A stretch of DNA of 37,929 bases from a virus. This document shows positions 26,964-36,457 of this stretch, one piece after another (within the stretch, counting starts at the first letter, position 1; every line of letters begins with the position of its first letter). The DNA is taken from the IMG/VR virus record IMGVR_UViG_3300047476_000615, positions 1 to 37,929 of that record. One strand, given 5' to 3'. The translations under genes and the position numbers were made by a program. The notes beneath the pieces were generated by a model that was given only the letters and a program-made list of their open reading frames with translations, was not told where the DNA came from and ran no database searches.

Positions 26964-27515
26964 TTATATAATTAAGTCTAAATCGTTTTCAGTTGATAAT
27001 ATTGTGTCATTTTCTGCAGCAATTGGAACATCTACTAATTTACCTATAACATAAATATCATTTATTGTTACATTATCAAAATCAATATATTCACCATTTA
27101 ATGTTACAACAACATTATTTCCAACATTTTCTATTGTATAATCTCCAGGAATATGCAAACCGAACACTAAAATTTCAAAATTTTCAGGAGATGCACCTTC
27201 CGTTCCATAATCTGTATAAACATTTCGAATGGTTAGTGTATTATTTACATTATCAAATTCATCAATTGTTCTACTAACTTGTCTTGCACCAAATTGTAAA
27301 ATTTCATTATAAAAATTTGATATTTTATTTTTATTATTTACTAACTTAGTCGGATTTGGGTTACTTCTTGTATGAGATTGGTATGAAGATGATGATGGTA
27401 ATTCTACATTTAATAAACTACCCGTAATGTATAATTCATCGTTTACATTATTGGGATTTATTTTAGGTATAATCCTATTTAATTTTCTACTATTTGATGA
27501 AAATCTTTTAAGCAT
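26964..27515 (-). CDS. Neck-proximal structural protein with gp15-tail-like beta module
   Basis: A 183-residue protein starting MLKRFSSNSRKLNRIIPKIN. Residues about 90-175 (TIDEFDNVNNTLTIRNVYTD, EILVFGLHIPGDYTIENVGN, YIDFDNVTINDIYVIGKLVD) repeat the pattern seen at the C-termini of the two preceding genes: an opening strand, a DYxI turn, and a closing I-x-V-x-GK-x-x-DV. The first 70 residues are Asn/Ser-rich and probably flexible. It overlaps the preceding gene by 8 bases, with AAAGGAG 12 bases before the ATG, which is also coding. I do not recognise a named family; a neck or fibre-adaptor role is inferred from position. Confidence 0.65.
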   Translation of the reverse strand: MLKRFSSNSRKLNRIIPKINPNNVNDELYITGSLLNVELPSSSSYQSHTRSNPNPTKLVNNKNKISNFYNEILQFGARQVSRTIDEFDNVNNTLTIRNVYTDYGTEGASPENFEILVFGLHIPGDYTIENVGNNVVVTLNGEYIDFDNVTINDIYVIGKLVDVPIAAENDTILSTENDLDLII

Positions 27516-31829: not shown

Positions 31830-33446
31830 TTATAAAGTGTTTAAACCATCAACGACAATCTTACCGTAGAACTCTGGTCTTACGATTTTCTTAGCGTATC
31901 TAGTCATAACACCTCTTCTTGGAGTGAAGTTAGTTGGGTCATAAACTAATGGAGTCATAATCAACGGAACATATGGAGCGTATACAGCACCTGTTTCGAA
32001 GAAGTTAGAACCTTTGAAACCTAATAAGATTACATTCTCAGTCATGTATGGGTTTTTGTAAACATCATATCTGTTAGAGATTGAACCGATATTAGTAACA
32101 CCTGCTGCGAAAGATAAAGCATCTTTACCTGGGTTAGCAGAGAAACCATTCATTGATTCTAAAATAGTAGCCACGTTTGGAGATACAACTAAGAAGTTAG
32201 CACCACCTCTCATAGTTAACTGATGGATTTTGTTAGATACCTTTTGTAATTTGATACCTAAAGTTTGATACCAAGTGCTCTTAGTGTAAGCAGATGCAGC
32301 AGCTGCATTTGAATCAATTGCGAAAGCACCAGTTGCTGAATCGTAGTCATATCCTACTCTTGCAGACCAGTAATCAGTTGTGAAAGCGTTTTGTTGTAAC
32401 ATTTCTAAGATTTCTAAGTCGATTTCTAAAGAGATGTACTCACTTAACATTTGAGTTAACTCAGCTTCAGCGTCTACACTATGGTAAGCGTTTAAGTCTT
32501 GAGCTAATTCTGGAGTCCAAATTGCTTTTAATTTTCTTGTCTTAGCAACAATTGGTTCAGATTTCAATTCTAATTCGATTTCTGGGATAGCCAAATCAAT
32601 TCCTTTATCTTCGAAATCACCTCTGTTGTAATCAGTTGGTTGAACATGGTAAGTCAAAGTTTGAGTTGTCAATGAAGTTGCAACTAATGCAGCTGAAGAA
32701 GATACATAGAAAGATGCAGAACCTGCAGTATCTATTGTAGTTAATTCAGGGAATGCAGTTACAGCAGCAGAACCAGAGATTTTGAAAGCTCTTACACCTT
32801 GCCAATCAGCATCAGCAGGTAAACCTACTTTTACTTTTCTCCAAGCGTCTGGAGTTGCAGCGAAAGATGCAGATAATGTTTCATTACCTAAGAAATCAGA
32901 TGCAGAACCAGAAGTTACAGTTGCAGTTACTGCTGCAGTTGTATCATTGATTGTATATCCGAATCTACCAGCACCATAAAGACCACCTTCAGCAGCTTGA
33001 GTAGAACCCAATTTGTTACCTGCAGGAGATAAATTGTCTTTACCGAAAGTACCACCATTACCAAACATAGAAGAACCAGATGCTGGTCTACCTAAAGTTG
33101 TGTTAGTACCATATTTGAAGTCCATGTAGAAAATAAGACCTGAAGGTAAGTTCATAGGTTGAACTGAAACGAACTCTTTAGAAGCGATAGAACCGAAGAT
33201 TCTTCTTACTAAAGGTAACGCAACACCAGCCCATTCTTCAGAACCTGCTGAAGTACCTGTTCTTGTAGCCTCATCCAATAATTGTTTTGCTTGGTTTTCT
33301 AACATTACTGCCATACCATGCTTAGCTGTTTCAGAACCTGCGTTCTCTAACAAACCTGTTTTTTCCCATTTTGCTTTCAAACCTCTAGTTTGCTCAAGCA
33401 TTAAAGACTGTGGGTTAGCGCCTGTCATTAAATTTTTTAAGTCCAT
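31830..33446 (-). CDS. gp23: Major capsid protein gp23
   Basis: A 538-residue protein, close to T4 gp23 (521). Diagnostic segments are LVRRIFGSIASKEFVSVQPM, NLPSGLIFYMDFKYGT, KLKAIWTPELAQDLNAYHSV, EISLEID/ISLEIDLEILEML, VSPNVATILESMNGF and KIVRPEFYGKIVVDGLNTL. It forms the hexamers of the HK97-fold head. Candidate gp21 cleavage sites of the L-x-E type near the N-terminus include LLE at residues 32-34. The region about 125-290 carries Ser/Thr/Ala-rich insertions, probably surface loops. The gene has no SD and follows gp22 with a 26-base gap. Base composition is less AT-rich than its neighbours, as usual for a highly expressed gene. Confidence 0.97.
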   Translation of the reverse strand: MDLKNLMTGANPQSLMLEQTRGLKAKWEKTGLLENAGSETAKHGMAVMLENQAKQLLDEATRTGTSAGSEEWAGVALPLVRRIFGSIASKEFVSVQPMNLPSGLIFYMDFKYGTNTTLGRPASGSSMFGNGGTFGKDNLSPAGNKLGSTQAAEGGLYGAGRFGYTINDTTAAVTATVTSGSASDFLGNETLSASFAATPDAWRKVKVGLPADADWQGVRAFKISGSAAVTAFPELTTIDTAGSASFYVSSSAALVATSLTTQTLTYHVQPTDYNRGDFEDKGIDLAIPEIELELKSEPIVAKTRKLKAIWTPELAQDLNAYHSVDAEAELTQMLSEYISLEIDLEILEMLQQNAFTTDYWSARVGYDYDSATGAFAIDSNAAAASAYTKSTWYQTLGIKLQKVSNKIHQLTMRGGANFLVVSPNVATILESMNGFSANPGKDALSFAAGVTNIGSISNRYDVYKNPYMTENVILLGFKGSNFFETGAVYAPYVPLIMTPLVYDPTNFTPRRGVMTRYAKKIVRPEFYGKIVVDGLNTL

Positions 33447-33472: not shown

Positions 33473-34702
33473 TTATTTGATAATACCTGCTAATTTTTTA
33501 AATCTATCAGAAAAATCAGCTGATTCAGCAATTACTTGCTTAACTTCAGTCTTTGGAGCAGTTGATTTAACTGCTTTAGAAGCGATTCCTTCTGTGATTG
33601 ATTTCTTAGCTGTTTTAGTAATTGAAGTATATTTGAAGTTCTCTGCTAATGTAGAGTAAACCAATTTAACTTCTCTTACTGATTTTGTTCTATCCAAAGT
33701 TTCAATCACTTTCACTTTTTGCTCGTTAGTCATGTTGTGTGCTCTGAATAATTTGTTTGCAAATAACAACTTAGCGTTCAATAAGTTCACTTCGTTGATA
33801 GTTGTTTGAAGAGATTTGATAGTTGCATAAGCTTCTTTCAATTCTGCATCTTTTTCATCTTCTTTAGATTCTTCAGCTTCGTTTGTTAAGTCAGCTTCCA
33901 TTTCTCTTAAGATTTCTTCTAAATCGATAACTTCATCCATTTCTTCTTTGTTATCTTCTTTAGCTTCTTCATTAGTAGCTTCTTTTTCTTCAGTTTCGTC
34001 TTTAGCTTCTTCAACTGTTTCTTCTTTTTCAGTTTCTTCAGCTTCGTACATTGATTCTTCGTTTTCGTCAGAATCTTCACCTTCTAAAGTTGCTTCTAAT
34101 TCTCTGATAATAGCTTCTAAGTCCAATTCTTCTTCATCAGACTCTTGGTCATTAGAATCCATATCCATTGAATCATCACCCATGTCAGAATCCATATTCA
34201 TGTCATCTTCTTGTGAGTTGTCTAAATCCAATGTGTCTACATCATTTGTGTCATCCATAGAATCGTTACCTTCTAATTCTGCAATTCTTGCCTTTAATTC
34301 AGCAATTTCTGCATCTTTATCAGATACTTCACCTTCCATGCCTTCTTCTTCGTTGATATCAGCTACTTTTTTGTAGTCAGTACCAGCTTGTTCAGGTTTA
34401 CCACCATCTTTTTCAACACCAACTGATAAATCAGTATGTGCATCTAAAGTAGGGTTTTTACCTGGAGTTTCAGCATATCCAGCTTCTACTTTTGAACCAA
34501 TTCCAGTAGAACCTAACTCTTCGTTTTGCATTTCTTCTTCGTCATTTTCCATTTCAGCTTCAGCTTGTAGCTTTTGAGTTAAAATAGATTGAAGTCTTGG
34601 AGTAAATGCTTCTTCAAGAGCTAATTTTGCATTAGCTAAAGCAGTTTCTTTAACAGCTTTGGCATCAGCGATTGCTTCTTTCAATAATTTTGAATTTGCC
34701 AT
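33473..34702 (-). CDS. gp22: Prohead core scaffold protein gp22
   Basis: A 409-residue helical protein with an extremely acidic middle (residues about 50-290, many Glu/Asp runs such as NDEEEMQNEELGS and DEEELDLEAIIRELEATLEG). The N-terminus MANSKLLKEAIADAKAVKET and a C-terminal domain (AKLLFANKLFRAHNMTNEQK, VIETLDRTKSVREVKLVYST, DFSDRFKKLAGIIK) are as expected for T4-like gp22, the internal scaffold digested by gp21. It is longer than T4 gp22 (269), mostly through the acidic insert. This gene is unusual in having a clean Shine-Dalgarno sequence, AAGGAG eight bases before ATG, in a non-coding leader of 186 bases, directly downstream of the phage bS21 gene. Confidence 0.88.
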   Translation of the reverse strand: MANSKLLKEAIADAKAVKETALANAKLALEEAFTPRLQSILTQKLQAEAEMENDEEEMQNEELGSTGIGSKVEAGYAETPGKNPTLDAHTDLSVGVEKDGGKPEQAGTDYKKVADINEEEGMEGEVSDKDAEIAELKARIAELEGNDSMDDTNDVDTLDLDNSQEDDMNMDSDMGDDSMDMDSNDQESDEEELDLEAIIRELEATLEGEDSDENEESMYEAEETEKEETVEEAKDETEEKEATNEEAKEDNKEEMDEVIDLEEILREMEADLTNEAEESKEDEKDAELKEAYATIKSLQTTINEVNLLNAKLLFANKLFRAHNMTNEQKVKVIETLDRTKSVREVKLVYSTLAENFKYTSITKTAKKSITEGIASKAVKSTAPKTEVKQVIAESADFSDRFKKLAGIIK

Positions 34703-34710
34703 TTGTTTTT

Positions 34711-34716
34711 CTCCTT
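34711..34716 (-). promoter_or_regulatory. Strong Shine-Dalgarno sequence AAGGAG of gp22
   Basis: AAGGAG lies 8 bases before the ATG at 34702, in non-coding DNA. It is the only clear non-coding SD among about 30 gene starts in the window. Confidence 0.85.
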
Positions 34717-34821
34717 AAATTTGTTCGTGAAGTTATTTAGAAAGGAACTCCAATAGAATTATATTGATTGTTCGGTCACACCTTATAGAGAAGGGTATTC
34801 ATTAATCAATAGTATAAAAGT

Positions 34822-34851
34822 CAAATCCCATATTAAATAATGGGACATTTG
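34822..34851 (-). terminator. Hairpin after bS21, probable terminator
   Basis: On the coding strand CAAATGTCCCAT / ATGGGATTTG pair as a stem with a two-base bulge around an 8-base TATTTAAT loop, followed by GACTTTTATAC. The U tract is short, so it may instead be a processing or attenuation hairpin in the gp22 leader. Confidence 0.6.
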
Positions 34852-34888
34852 ATAATATATATAAACTTTTTTTAGAAAACTAAAGAAA

Positions 34889-35068
34889 TTATAAAGAATG
34901 TTTGTTTTTTCTTATAGTTTCTTCTTTTTGTAATCTTTTTCTAACCGAAGGCTTGGTAAAATTCTTTCTATCTCTAAGTTCTTCGATTTGTTTTGTGGAC
35001 TGAACTTTTTTCTTATATTCCTTTAATGCCCACTCAATATTTCCACCCTTAACACTAACTATTAACAT
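34889..35068 (-). CDS. rpsU: Phage-encoded ribosomal protein bS21
   Basis: A 59-residue gene, below many ORF length cut-offs. The product starts MLIVSVKGGNIEWALKEYKK, continues KVQSTKQIEELRDRKNFTK, then PSVRKRLQKEETIRKNKHSL. This is the bS21 pattern: an N-terminal strand I-x-V-x-x-x-x-x-I-x-x-A-L-x-x-Y-K-x-K, then LRxRxxFxKPSVxKR, with the KPSVxKR form typical of Bacteroidota. bS21 binds the small ribosomal subunit next to bS18 and the 3' end of 16S rRNA and influences initiation. The ATG shares its A with the stop of the upstream DUF5856-like gene (TAATG), so translation is coupled. It lies at the end of the prohead operon, just before gp22. Viral bS21 genes are known from surveys; their role is still unclear. 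Confidence 0.9.
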   Translation of the reverse strand: MLIVSVKGGNIEWALKEYKKKVQSTKQIEELRDRKNFTKPSVRKRLQKEETIRKNKHSL

Positions 35069-35439
35069 TATTGTAAATTAACCAATTTGTATTTTGTTGA
35101 GTATAATAAAGTTACAATTGTGTCTATATCGTTTTGCAACCAACTCATTTGTAATTTTTCGTCTTTTCTTAATTTTGCAACTGCTGCAATTAATTTGTCA
35201 AAATATGCAATTATATTTTTAATATCATTATTCGTATCCAAACCACTAACAGGTTGTAATTTAATCAAACCATATTGTCCTTGATATGCTTCAACCAATC
35301 CGTCTACCATACCACCAATTGAATCATAATAATTTCCCAATGCCAAATGTGCAGATAAAGAACCTACACCTTTAACTCCTAAATGAAATGAATGAACCTG
35401 TGTTCTACTATGTAATAATAATGATGCTAATTGTTCCAT
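35068..35439 (-). CDS. DUF5856-like helical protein (ferritin-like)
   Basis: A 123-residue all-helical protein, MEQLASLLLHSRTQVHSFHL, VKGVGSLSAHLALGNYYDSI, GGMVDGLVEAYQGQYGLIKL. The H-S-R-T-Q-x-H...H-x-A-L-G-x-Y-Y-D...L-V-E-x-Y-Q-G pattern matches a phage protein family (DUF5856) resembling ferritin/Dps four-helix bundles. Several conserved His and acidic residues could bind metal, but no function is established. It follows a helical gene by one shared or adjacent base and overlaps the bS21 start. The family label is from memory of the pattern. Confidence 0.65.
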   Translation of the reverse strand: MEQLASLLLHSRTQVHSFHLGVKGVGSLSAHLALGNYYDSIGGMVDGLVEAYQGQYGLIKLQPVSGLDTNNDIKNIIAYFDKLIAAVAKLRKDEKLQMSWLQNDIDTIVTLLYSTKYKLVNLQ

Positions 35440-35866: not shown

Positions 35867-36457
35867 TTAGTTTAATTCTATTATAATTTCTCTCATTAAA
35901 TCTTGTGACTTACACCATTTACCACATTCTTCAGCTTGTTGTGCCCATTGTTTAGATTCTTGCAATGGGGCCATAAATGCACCATGTGTTGATGGATTTG
36001 ATACAAAGTCCCACCCAACTAATTCAAAGTCTTCCTGAACCATTACAGTACCATCTCTCATTTCCTTTACTGAACCTAATCCTCTTGAAGAAATTCCTAA
36101 ACGAATATTATTTTTTAATAATTCTTTTAAGATATTGCCAGATGGAGTTGAAAGAATTTCTACTACTCCACATACATCATCACCTTCCCACCAAATTTCT
36201 CTGATGTTATGTGATACATTTTTTAAGTTAATAACAGGAGAATCTGGATGGTCTAATTCACCCAATGCTCTTCTTTCTTTAATAAGTTGTTCGTATTTTT
36301 TACACTCTCTTTCTAAGATTTCTTTTGGATATCTTCTATGATTTTGATTTGGTGCACCTGCTCTTTGAAGAATACCTTTAACTAAGTAAGTTCCGTTTTC
36401 TTCTTTTTGAAGTTTTGCCTCAAATAAATGAGTTTCTATTAATAATCCTTTATTCAT
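35867..36457 (-). CDS. gp21: Prohead core protease gp21
   Basis: A 196-residue serine protease of the T4 prohead protease family (herpesvirus-like fold). Key residues are visible: His70 in RALGELDHPDSP, Ser123/Ser124 in IRLGISSRGLGSV, and Asp150 in FELVGWDFVSNPSTHGAF. The N-terminal LVKGILQRAGAPNQNHRRYP is also typical. It cleaves gp22, gp23 and other head proteins after L/I-x-E during maturation. The start ATG overlaps the stop of the EF-hand-like gene (TAATG). It is in the order 21, (two small genes, bS21), 22, 23. Confidence 0.93.
   Translation of the reverse strand: MNKGLLIETHLFEAKLQKEENGTYLVKGILQRAGAPNQNHRRYPKEILERECKKYEQLIKERRALGELDHPDSPVINLKNVSHNIREIWWEGDDVCGVVEILSTPSGNILKELLKNNIRLGISSRGLGSVKEMRDGTVMVQEDFELVGWDFVSNPSTHGAFMAPLQESKQWAQQAEECGKWCKSQDLMREIIIELN

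Follow-up and report, generated by a model that had tools for sequence, protein, structure and literature searches.

A conserved RNA leader with a covarying hairpin and a lone Shine-Dalgarno sequence precedes the putative scaffold gene of phages with and without bS21

The DNA analysed here (the window), a fragment of 37.9 kb from IMG/VR, has every recognised gene on the minus strand. The part of interest is a T4-like head-gene cluster with the following organization:

35867..36457, minus strand: prohead protease gp21 (Peptidase_S77)
35068-35439: DUF5856 / 'starvation-inducible regulator' protein (phrog_858), between gp21 and bS21
34889..35068, minus strand: phage bS21 (rpsU-like), 59 aa (Pfam Ribosomal_S21)
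34703..34888, minus strand: gp22 leader, 186 nt, non-coding, conserved in relatives whether or not bS21 lies next to it
33473..34702, minus strand: gp22-like prohead core/scaffold gene, for an acidic protein of 409 aa, so named because it stands between the gp21 protease and gp23
31830..33446, minus strand: major capsid protein Gp23 (PF07068), without a Shine-Dalgarno (SD) sequence

The phage bS21 scores 50.5 bits against PF01165, for a curated cut-off of 27, and is thus a member of the family. Profile searches with the gp22 product gave no PHROG or Pfam family match; judging from position alone, it would be the scaffold. The place of the DUF5856 protein between gp21 and bS21 is conserved, including in relatives without bS21. 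A Bacteroidota host is suggested by the low use of SD sequences, by relatedness to Flavobacterium phage immuto (the capsid is 53% identical to those of immuto relatives) and by the similarity of the phage bS21 to Flavobacteriales proteins (about 50-61% identity with the best-matching one over residues 1-50). The motif ATATTTATA, the reverse complement of the T4 late TATAAATA, occurs at 11 sites on the coding (minus) strand of the window and at none on the opposite strand. Each copy lies 13-54 nt upstream of some gene start, as might be expected of a directional, promoter-like motif.

The gap between bS21 and gp22 is conserved far beyond the gp22 protein itself (alignments of 65 distinct gaps and of 67 sequences). 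From 5′ to 3′ on the minus strand, it comprises:

34869..34888, minus strand: near-invariant block TTTCTTTAGTTTTCTAAAAA, first element of the leader and abutting bS21; candidate part of a promoter or terminator
34851..34865, minus strand: AT-rich stretch TTTATATATATTATC (ATATTTATT in relatives), putatively late-promoter-like
34825..34846, minus strand: hairpin HA, GTCCCAT/ATGGGAT, with several complementary versions of the stem among relatives
34763..34810, minus strand: P1/P2 element, ATTGATT-AATGAATACCCTT..AAGGTGTGACCGAAC-AATCAAT, specific to the clade of the window
34728..34752, minus strand: hairpin H3, TGGAGTT ... AAT AACTTCA, common to three capsid clades and located just 5′ of the SD
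34711..34716, minus strand: SD sequence AAGGAG of gp22, with a spacing of 8 to the ATG (context AAATTTAAGGAGAAAAACAAATG)

In relatives without bS21, the leader starts at the same near-invariant block. Since it persists when bS21 is missing, the leader belongs to gp22, and the idea that it would be a 3′ element of bS21 is rejected. HA would probably lie close to the mRNA 5′ terminus. In two loci where bS21 is missing (L030 and L012), a terminator-like hairpin adjoins the 5′ side of the leader, about 190-230 nt before gp22; in L030 it reads CCTCAAAGAAATTTGAGG followed by a T run.

Folded as a single sequence, the leader of the window is only mildly stable (z -1.2), so that the case for a structure rests on covariation. 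The strongest signal comes from H3, which is found in the clade of the window (win), in the mel clade (relatives of the capsid of Microcystis phage Mel-JY01) and in the imm clade (relatives of the capsid of Flavobacterium phage immuto), at a median distance of 24-28 nt before the ATG. Phage immuto, a cultured relative lacking bS21, itself carries a leader of the H3 type. Across 60 aligned leaders, six of its 7 base pairs covary and 99.5% of the cells are paired, a value inflated by the preselection of leaders having at least 6 of the 7 pairs; when the helix is slid along the alignment, 52% are paired at most. Fairer evidence is given by the double-changed cells, 83 as compared with 20.9 +/- 3.6 after shuffling, and by an unselected tally, in which all 7 pairs can form in 142 of 166 leaders. 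A covariance model of H3 returned 28 hits in 849 kb, all of them, by position, gp22 leaders, with one hit per locus and one apiece in contigs of 238 kb and 209 kb. Inside the window clade H3 barely varies, and its support comes from the wider clades. Its loop is mostly 11-13 nt in the window clade versus about 6 elsewhere. The sequence of the stem changes freely, while the end of the loop (AAU) and the proximity to the start site are retained. These comparisons indicate that H3 is a real base-paired structure specific to gp22, present with or without bS21 and in SD-using as well as SD-poor phages. In P1/P2, the internal loop is almost invariant and P1 covaries at two pairs (G-C/A-U and A-U/G-C); P2 hardly varies in the window clade and lacks covariation support. 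Thus, the gp22 leader behaves as a conserved structured RNA, through H3 when set against shuffled and slid controls and through the two covarying pairs of P1. Downstream of Mel-JY01's own promoter-like stretch, directly after it, a similar motif (AATGAATAC) occurs, whose homology with P1/P2 is unproven, and it was not counted as the same element. No Rfam family reached its gathering score in the window or at 11 related loci, on which ground a known RNA family or ribozyme was set aside, and literature searches on the gp22 leader found nothing.

The SD sequence stands at the 3′ end of this leader. A preliminary description of the window had singled out gp22 as the lone strongly SD-led gene in an SD-poor set, and this was borne out: among 33 genes scanned, it is the sole one with a strong SD in a non-coding leader. 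The only other AAGGAG precedes the gene at 26964-27515, but it lies inside the upstream coding sequence with a spacing of 12 nt, and this gene was not accepted as another SD-led one. In 11 of 21 distinct relatives, this gene is again preceded by an SD-like match of 6 nt or more; it is the only other window gene with a frequent SD in the leaders of relatives, again within the upstream gene. At a threshold of at least 5 nt, an SD is found in 23 of 32 distinct gp22 leaders, in none of 37 for the capsid gene and in none of 33 for bS21. In a 238-kb relative carrying bS21 (G008), gp22 alone of 248 genes has a non-coding-leader SD of at least 6 nt, and in a 209-kb relative it is among two genes with a 5-nt SD; for these contigs, genes were called heuristically as the longest ATG ORF, a procedure that missed the true gp22 start in another relative (G014). 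G008 also carries a tmRNA (Rfam 77.5 bits; L428 18753-19125) with a predicted 23-residue tag, DEKSTMTYDDLMAFVGMDYAVAA, and 26 tRNAs (L429 1220-8700).

Duplex energies were calculated with the tail AUCACCUCCUUUCU, presumably that of Flavobacteriales 16S rRNA. The gp22 leader reaches -8.2 kcal/mol, the second rank among window leaders, and yet 5% of random 30-mers from the window pair more strongly than this, at -9.4 kcal/mol or below. The gp22 SD is therefore exceptional for its correct placement, not for its strength. Host rpsU leaders have a median of -19.8 kcal/mol (80 relatives), whereas the leader of the phage bS21 itself has no SD (-2.7 kcal/mol); neither phage gene has an extended SD of the rpsU type (below about -13 kcal/mol). 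Many leaders of the window clade have AAGGAA instead of AAGGAG.

Considering these features, it is rather likely that the gp22 SD belongs to a conserved folded leader of the scaffold-capsid mRNA acting in cis. The SD would form the final part of a dedicated 5′ leader of the gp22-gp23 transcript, arranged as the AT-rich promoter-like stretch, HA, P1/P2 in the clade of the window, H3, the SD and the ATG. As judged from its position, this leader would be part of a late mRNA and would control in cis the translation of scaffold and capsid, and perhaps the stability of their message. Within the leader, the lone SD would serve for ribosome docking, either kept alongside the rest or slowly decaying. 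Because the stem of H3 changes freely while its loop end and position stay fixed, it may be imagined that H3 is recognised by a phage protein or by the ribosome itself. Autoregulation by the scaffold would be a natural candidate mode. The cis-acting function is proposed from sequence comparison.

In another model, the gp22 SD would be a relic of SD-using ancestors, decaying slowly within a constrained leader and now of minor importance. Such ancestors are conceivable, as SD-using mel-clade relatives that carry bS21 have SDs on about 65% of their genes, gp22 included, and the AAGGAA and lost forms of the window clade look like intermediates of decay. Mere inheritance nevertheless fits poorly with the retention of the SD at gp22, when other genes, such as gp23, show none in the leaders counted above, and with its retention in two SD-poor lineages. 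This model is considered unlikely, though it deserves to be weighed.

The adjacent bS21 gene offers a further explanation, the one put forward in the preliminary description: a phage bS21 lacking the tyrosine clamp would displace that of the host, free the anti-SD and give a burst of gp22 scaffold. One of its premises held up, in that Arg53 of the phage protein aligns to Tyr54 of Flavobacterium johnsoniae bS21 (7JIL sequence), a position occupied by Tyr in 80 of 80 Flavobacterium-type host bS21s. With Arg53, the phage protein lacks the aromatic residue that defines the anti-SD-sequestering bS21 of the Bacteroidia type. The distinct bS21s of the window clade have Arg (63/65) or His (2/65) at this site. 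Tyr or His is present in other phage bS21s retrieved, which makes the window clade a real exception. In the mel clade, the site is occupied by 23 Arg, 15 Tyr, 2 Phe, 1 Lys and 1 Met, and Arg is the commonest state among bS21s of SD-using phages. Arg being usual in these SD-rich phages, it neither points to adaptation to SD-less hosts nor marks reprogramming here.

It is probable that the phage bS21 is incorporated into host ribosomes, and the biochemistry of reprogramming is plausible because F. johnsoniae ribosomes with the Y54A substitution prefer strong SDs and increase their translation (PMC9976891). In other Bacteroidetes phages, bS21 is expressed late with the structural genes (PMC9723584). 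Moreover, among 88 SD-poor loci, some on incomplete contigs, the gp22 SD is present in 30 of 34 with bS21 and in 19 of 54 without. These raw counts lean towards a link between bS21 and the SD but are confounded by clade: a sign test on the capsid tree, with few independent pairs and low power, gave a median p of 0.625, and the Fisher p of 0.035 within the window clade is uncorrected for relatedness.

Individual relatives break the link in both directions. The SD is present and bS21 was not found in L024-L026 and L030 of the window clade (contigs up to 102 kb with no Pfam S21 hit, being fragments in which absence is unproven), as well as in L287-L293, L302, L303 and L312 of the imm clade, whose other genes are nearly SD-free. 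Conversely, bS21 is present and the gp22 SD is missing in L028, L035, L072/L073/L079 and L074/L076/L080, an outcome that the preliminary description itself had named as refuting. This mismatch leads us to reject bS21 as the main cause of the lone SD; a link with bS21, while still conceivable for the AAGGAG forms, is not supported by the sequences compared. The energetics point the same way: in reporters, AGGA was unresponsive to bS21 mutation, while AGGAGGU gained 70% with Y54A, and bS21-linked autoregulation is tied to pairing below -13 kcal/mol (PMC9976891), far from the value for gp22. Host rpsU, with its much stronger SD, should also be raised equally by the phage bS21. Thus, the premises of the preliminary description (lone SD, loss of the Tyr clamp, SD-poor genes) stood and its causal step did not; reprogramming as the source of the gp22 SD is judged quite improbable. 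The bS21 gene appears instead as an old passenger of the head-gene cluster, which does not explain the SD. Mel-JY01, an isolated cyanobacterial phage, has a 75-aa bS21 in the same cluster (L162 6185-6412), and bS21 near gp22 is widespread among related phages with SD-rich genes. On the host side, one Flavobacteriales genome carries two rpsU copies of equal score, 8.5 kb apart (G321:C1 3683484 and 3692039).

Two variants can be envisaged. Host ribosomes devoid of bS21 would read the gp22 SD, as they do that of host rpsU and independently of the phage bS21, and gp22 translation would rise as bS21 runs short late in infection; F. johnsoniae ribosomes without bS21 do favour strong SDs (PMC9976891), and the lone SD occurs in phages without bS21, but the published effect is tied to an extended SD below -13 kcal/mol, whereas gp22 has -8.2 or weaker, and the host of the window phage is inferred, not proven, all of which leaves this variant very doubtful. 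There is similarly little chance that, in phages having both the full AAGGAG and Arg53, incorporated phage bS21 would partly free the anti-SD while H3 presents the SD, making gp22 the message of a specialised ribosome during head assembly.

The reading of the gp22 SD as part of a folded leader replaces the story of ribosome reprogramming by a leader RNA with covariation and no Rfam match, which precedes the scaffold gene in many T4-like phages with either SD-rich or SD-poor genomes. The relatives, with or without bS21, with or without the SD and with Arg or Tyr, provide a comparative set for the study of phage bS21 function.

In T4, the head cluster gp21-gp22-gp23 has the protease-scaffold-capsid order of the window. 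However, about 30 nt separate genes 21 and 22, the H3 model has no hit and no bS21 is found there; a leader inherited from T4 itself is therefore dismissed, T4 being without the gap. By description and not by sequence, the gp22 leader may be likened to the leaders of T4 genes 32 and 43, phage translational operators with structured RNA at the start site. It may likewise be compared, by description, with the scaffold gene of P22, which is autoregulated.

As for bS21, the phages of Chen et al. (2022, PMC9723584) share with the window a bS21 in the head-gene cluster, near protease and capsid, in large low-GC phages. Their bS21 is encoded on the strand opposite to the head genes and has an aromatic residue at position 54 in 61 of 61 Bacteroidetes-phage proteins, whereas that of the window has Arg and is co-directional with gp22 among head genes that are all on the minus strand. 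The published view of an ever-aromatic anti-SD clamp in such phages is hereby corrected. The autoregulation of F. johnsoniae rpsU (McNutt et al., 2023, PMC9976891) resembles the window in having one SD gene in an SD-less setting, and loss of Tyr54, a residue also lacking in the window bS21, raises SD use. There, however, the SD is an extended one and belongs to the bS21 gene, whereas in the window bS21 has none and gp22 has a modest one. Finally, the freshwater-2 RNA of Rfam (RF02980) has hairpins followed by AAGGAGAAAACAAAUG, as does the gp22 leader. Window positions 34700-34761 reach 18.1 bits (E 1.1), short of the gathering score of 49.9, and are not a member of this family, but freshwater-2 may be another phage leader of the same sort.
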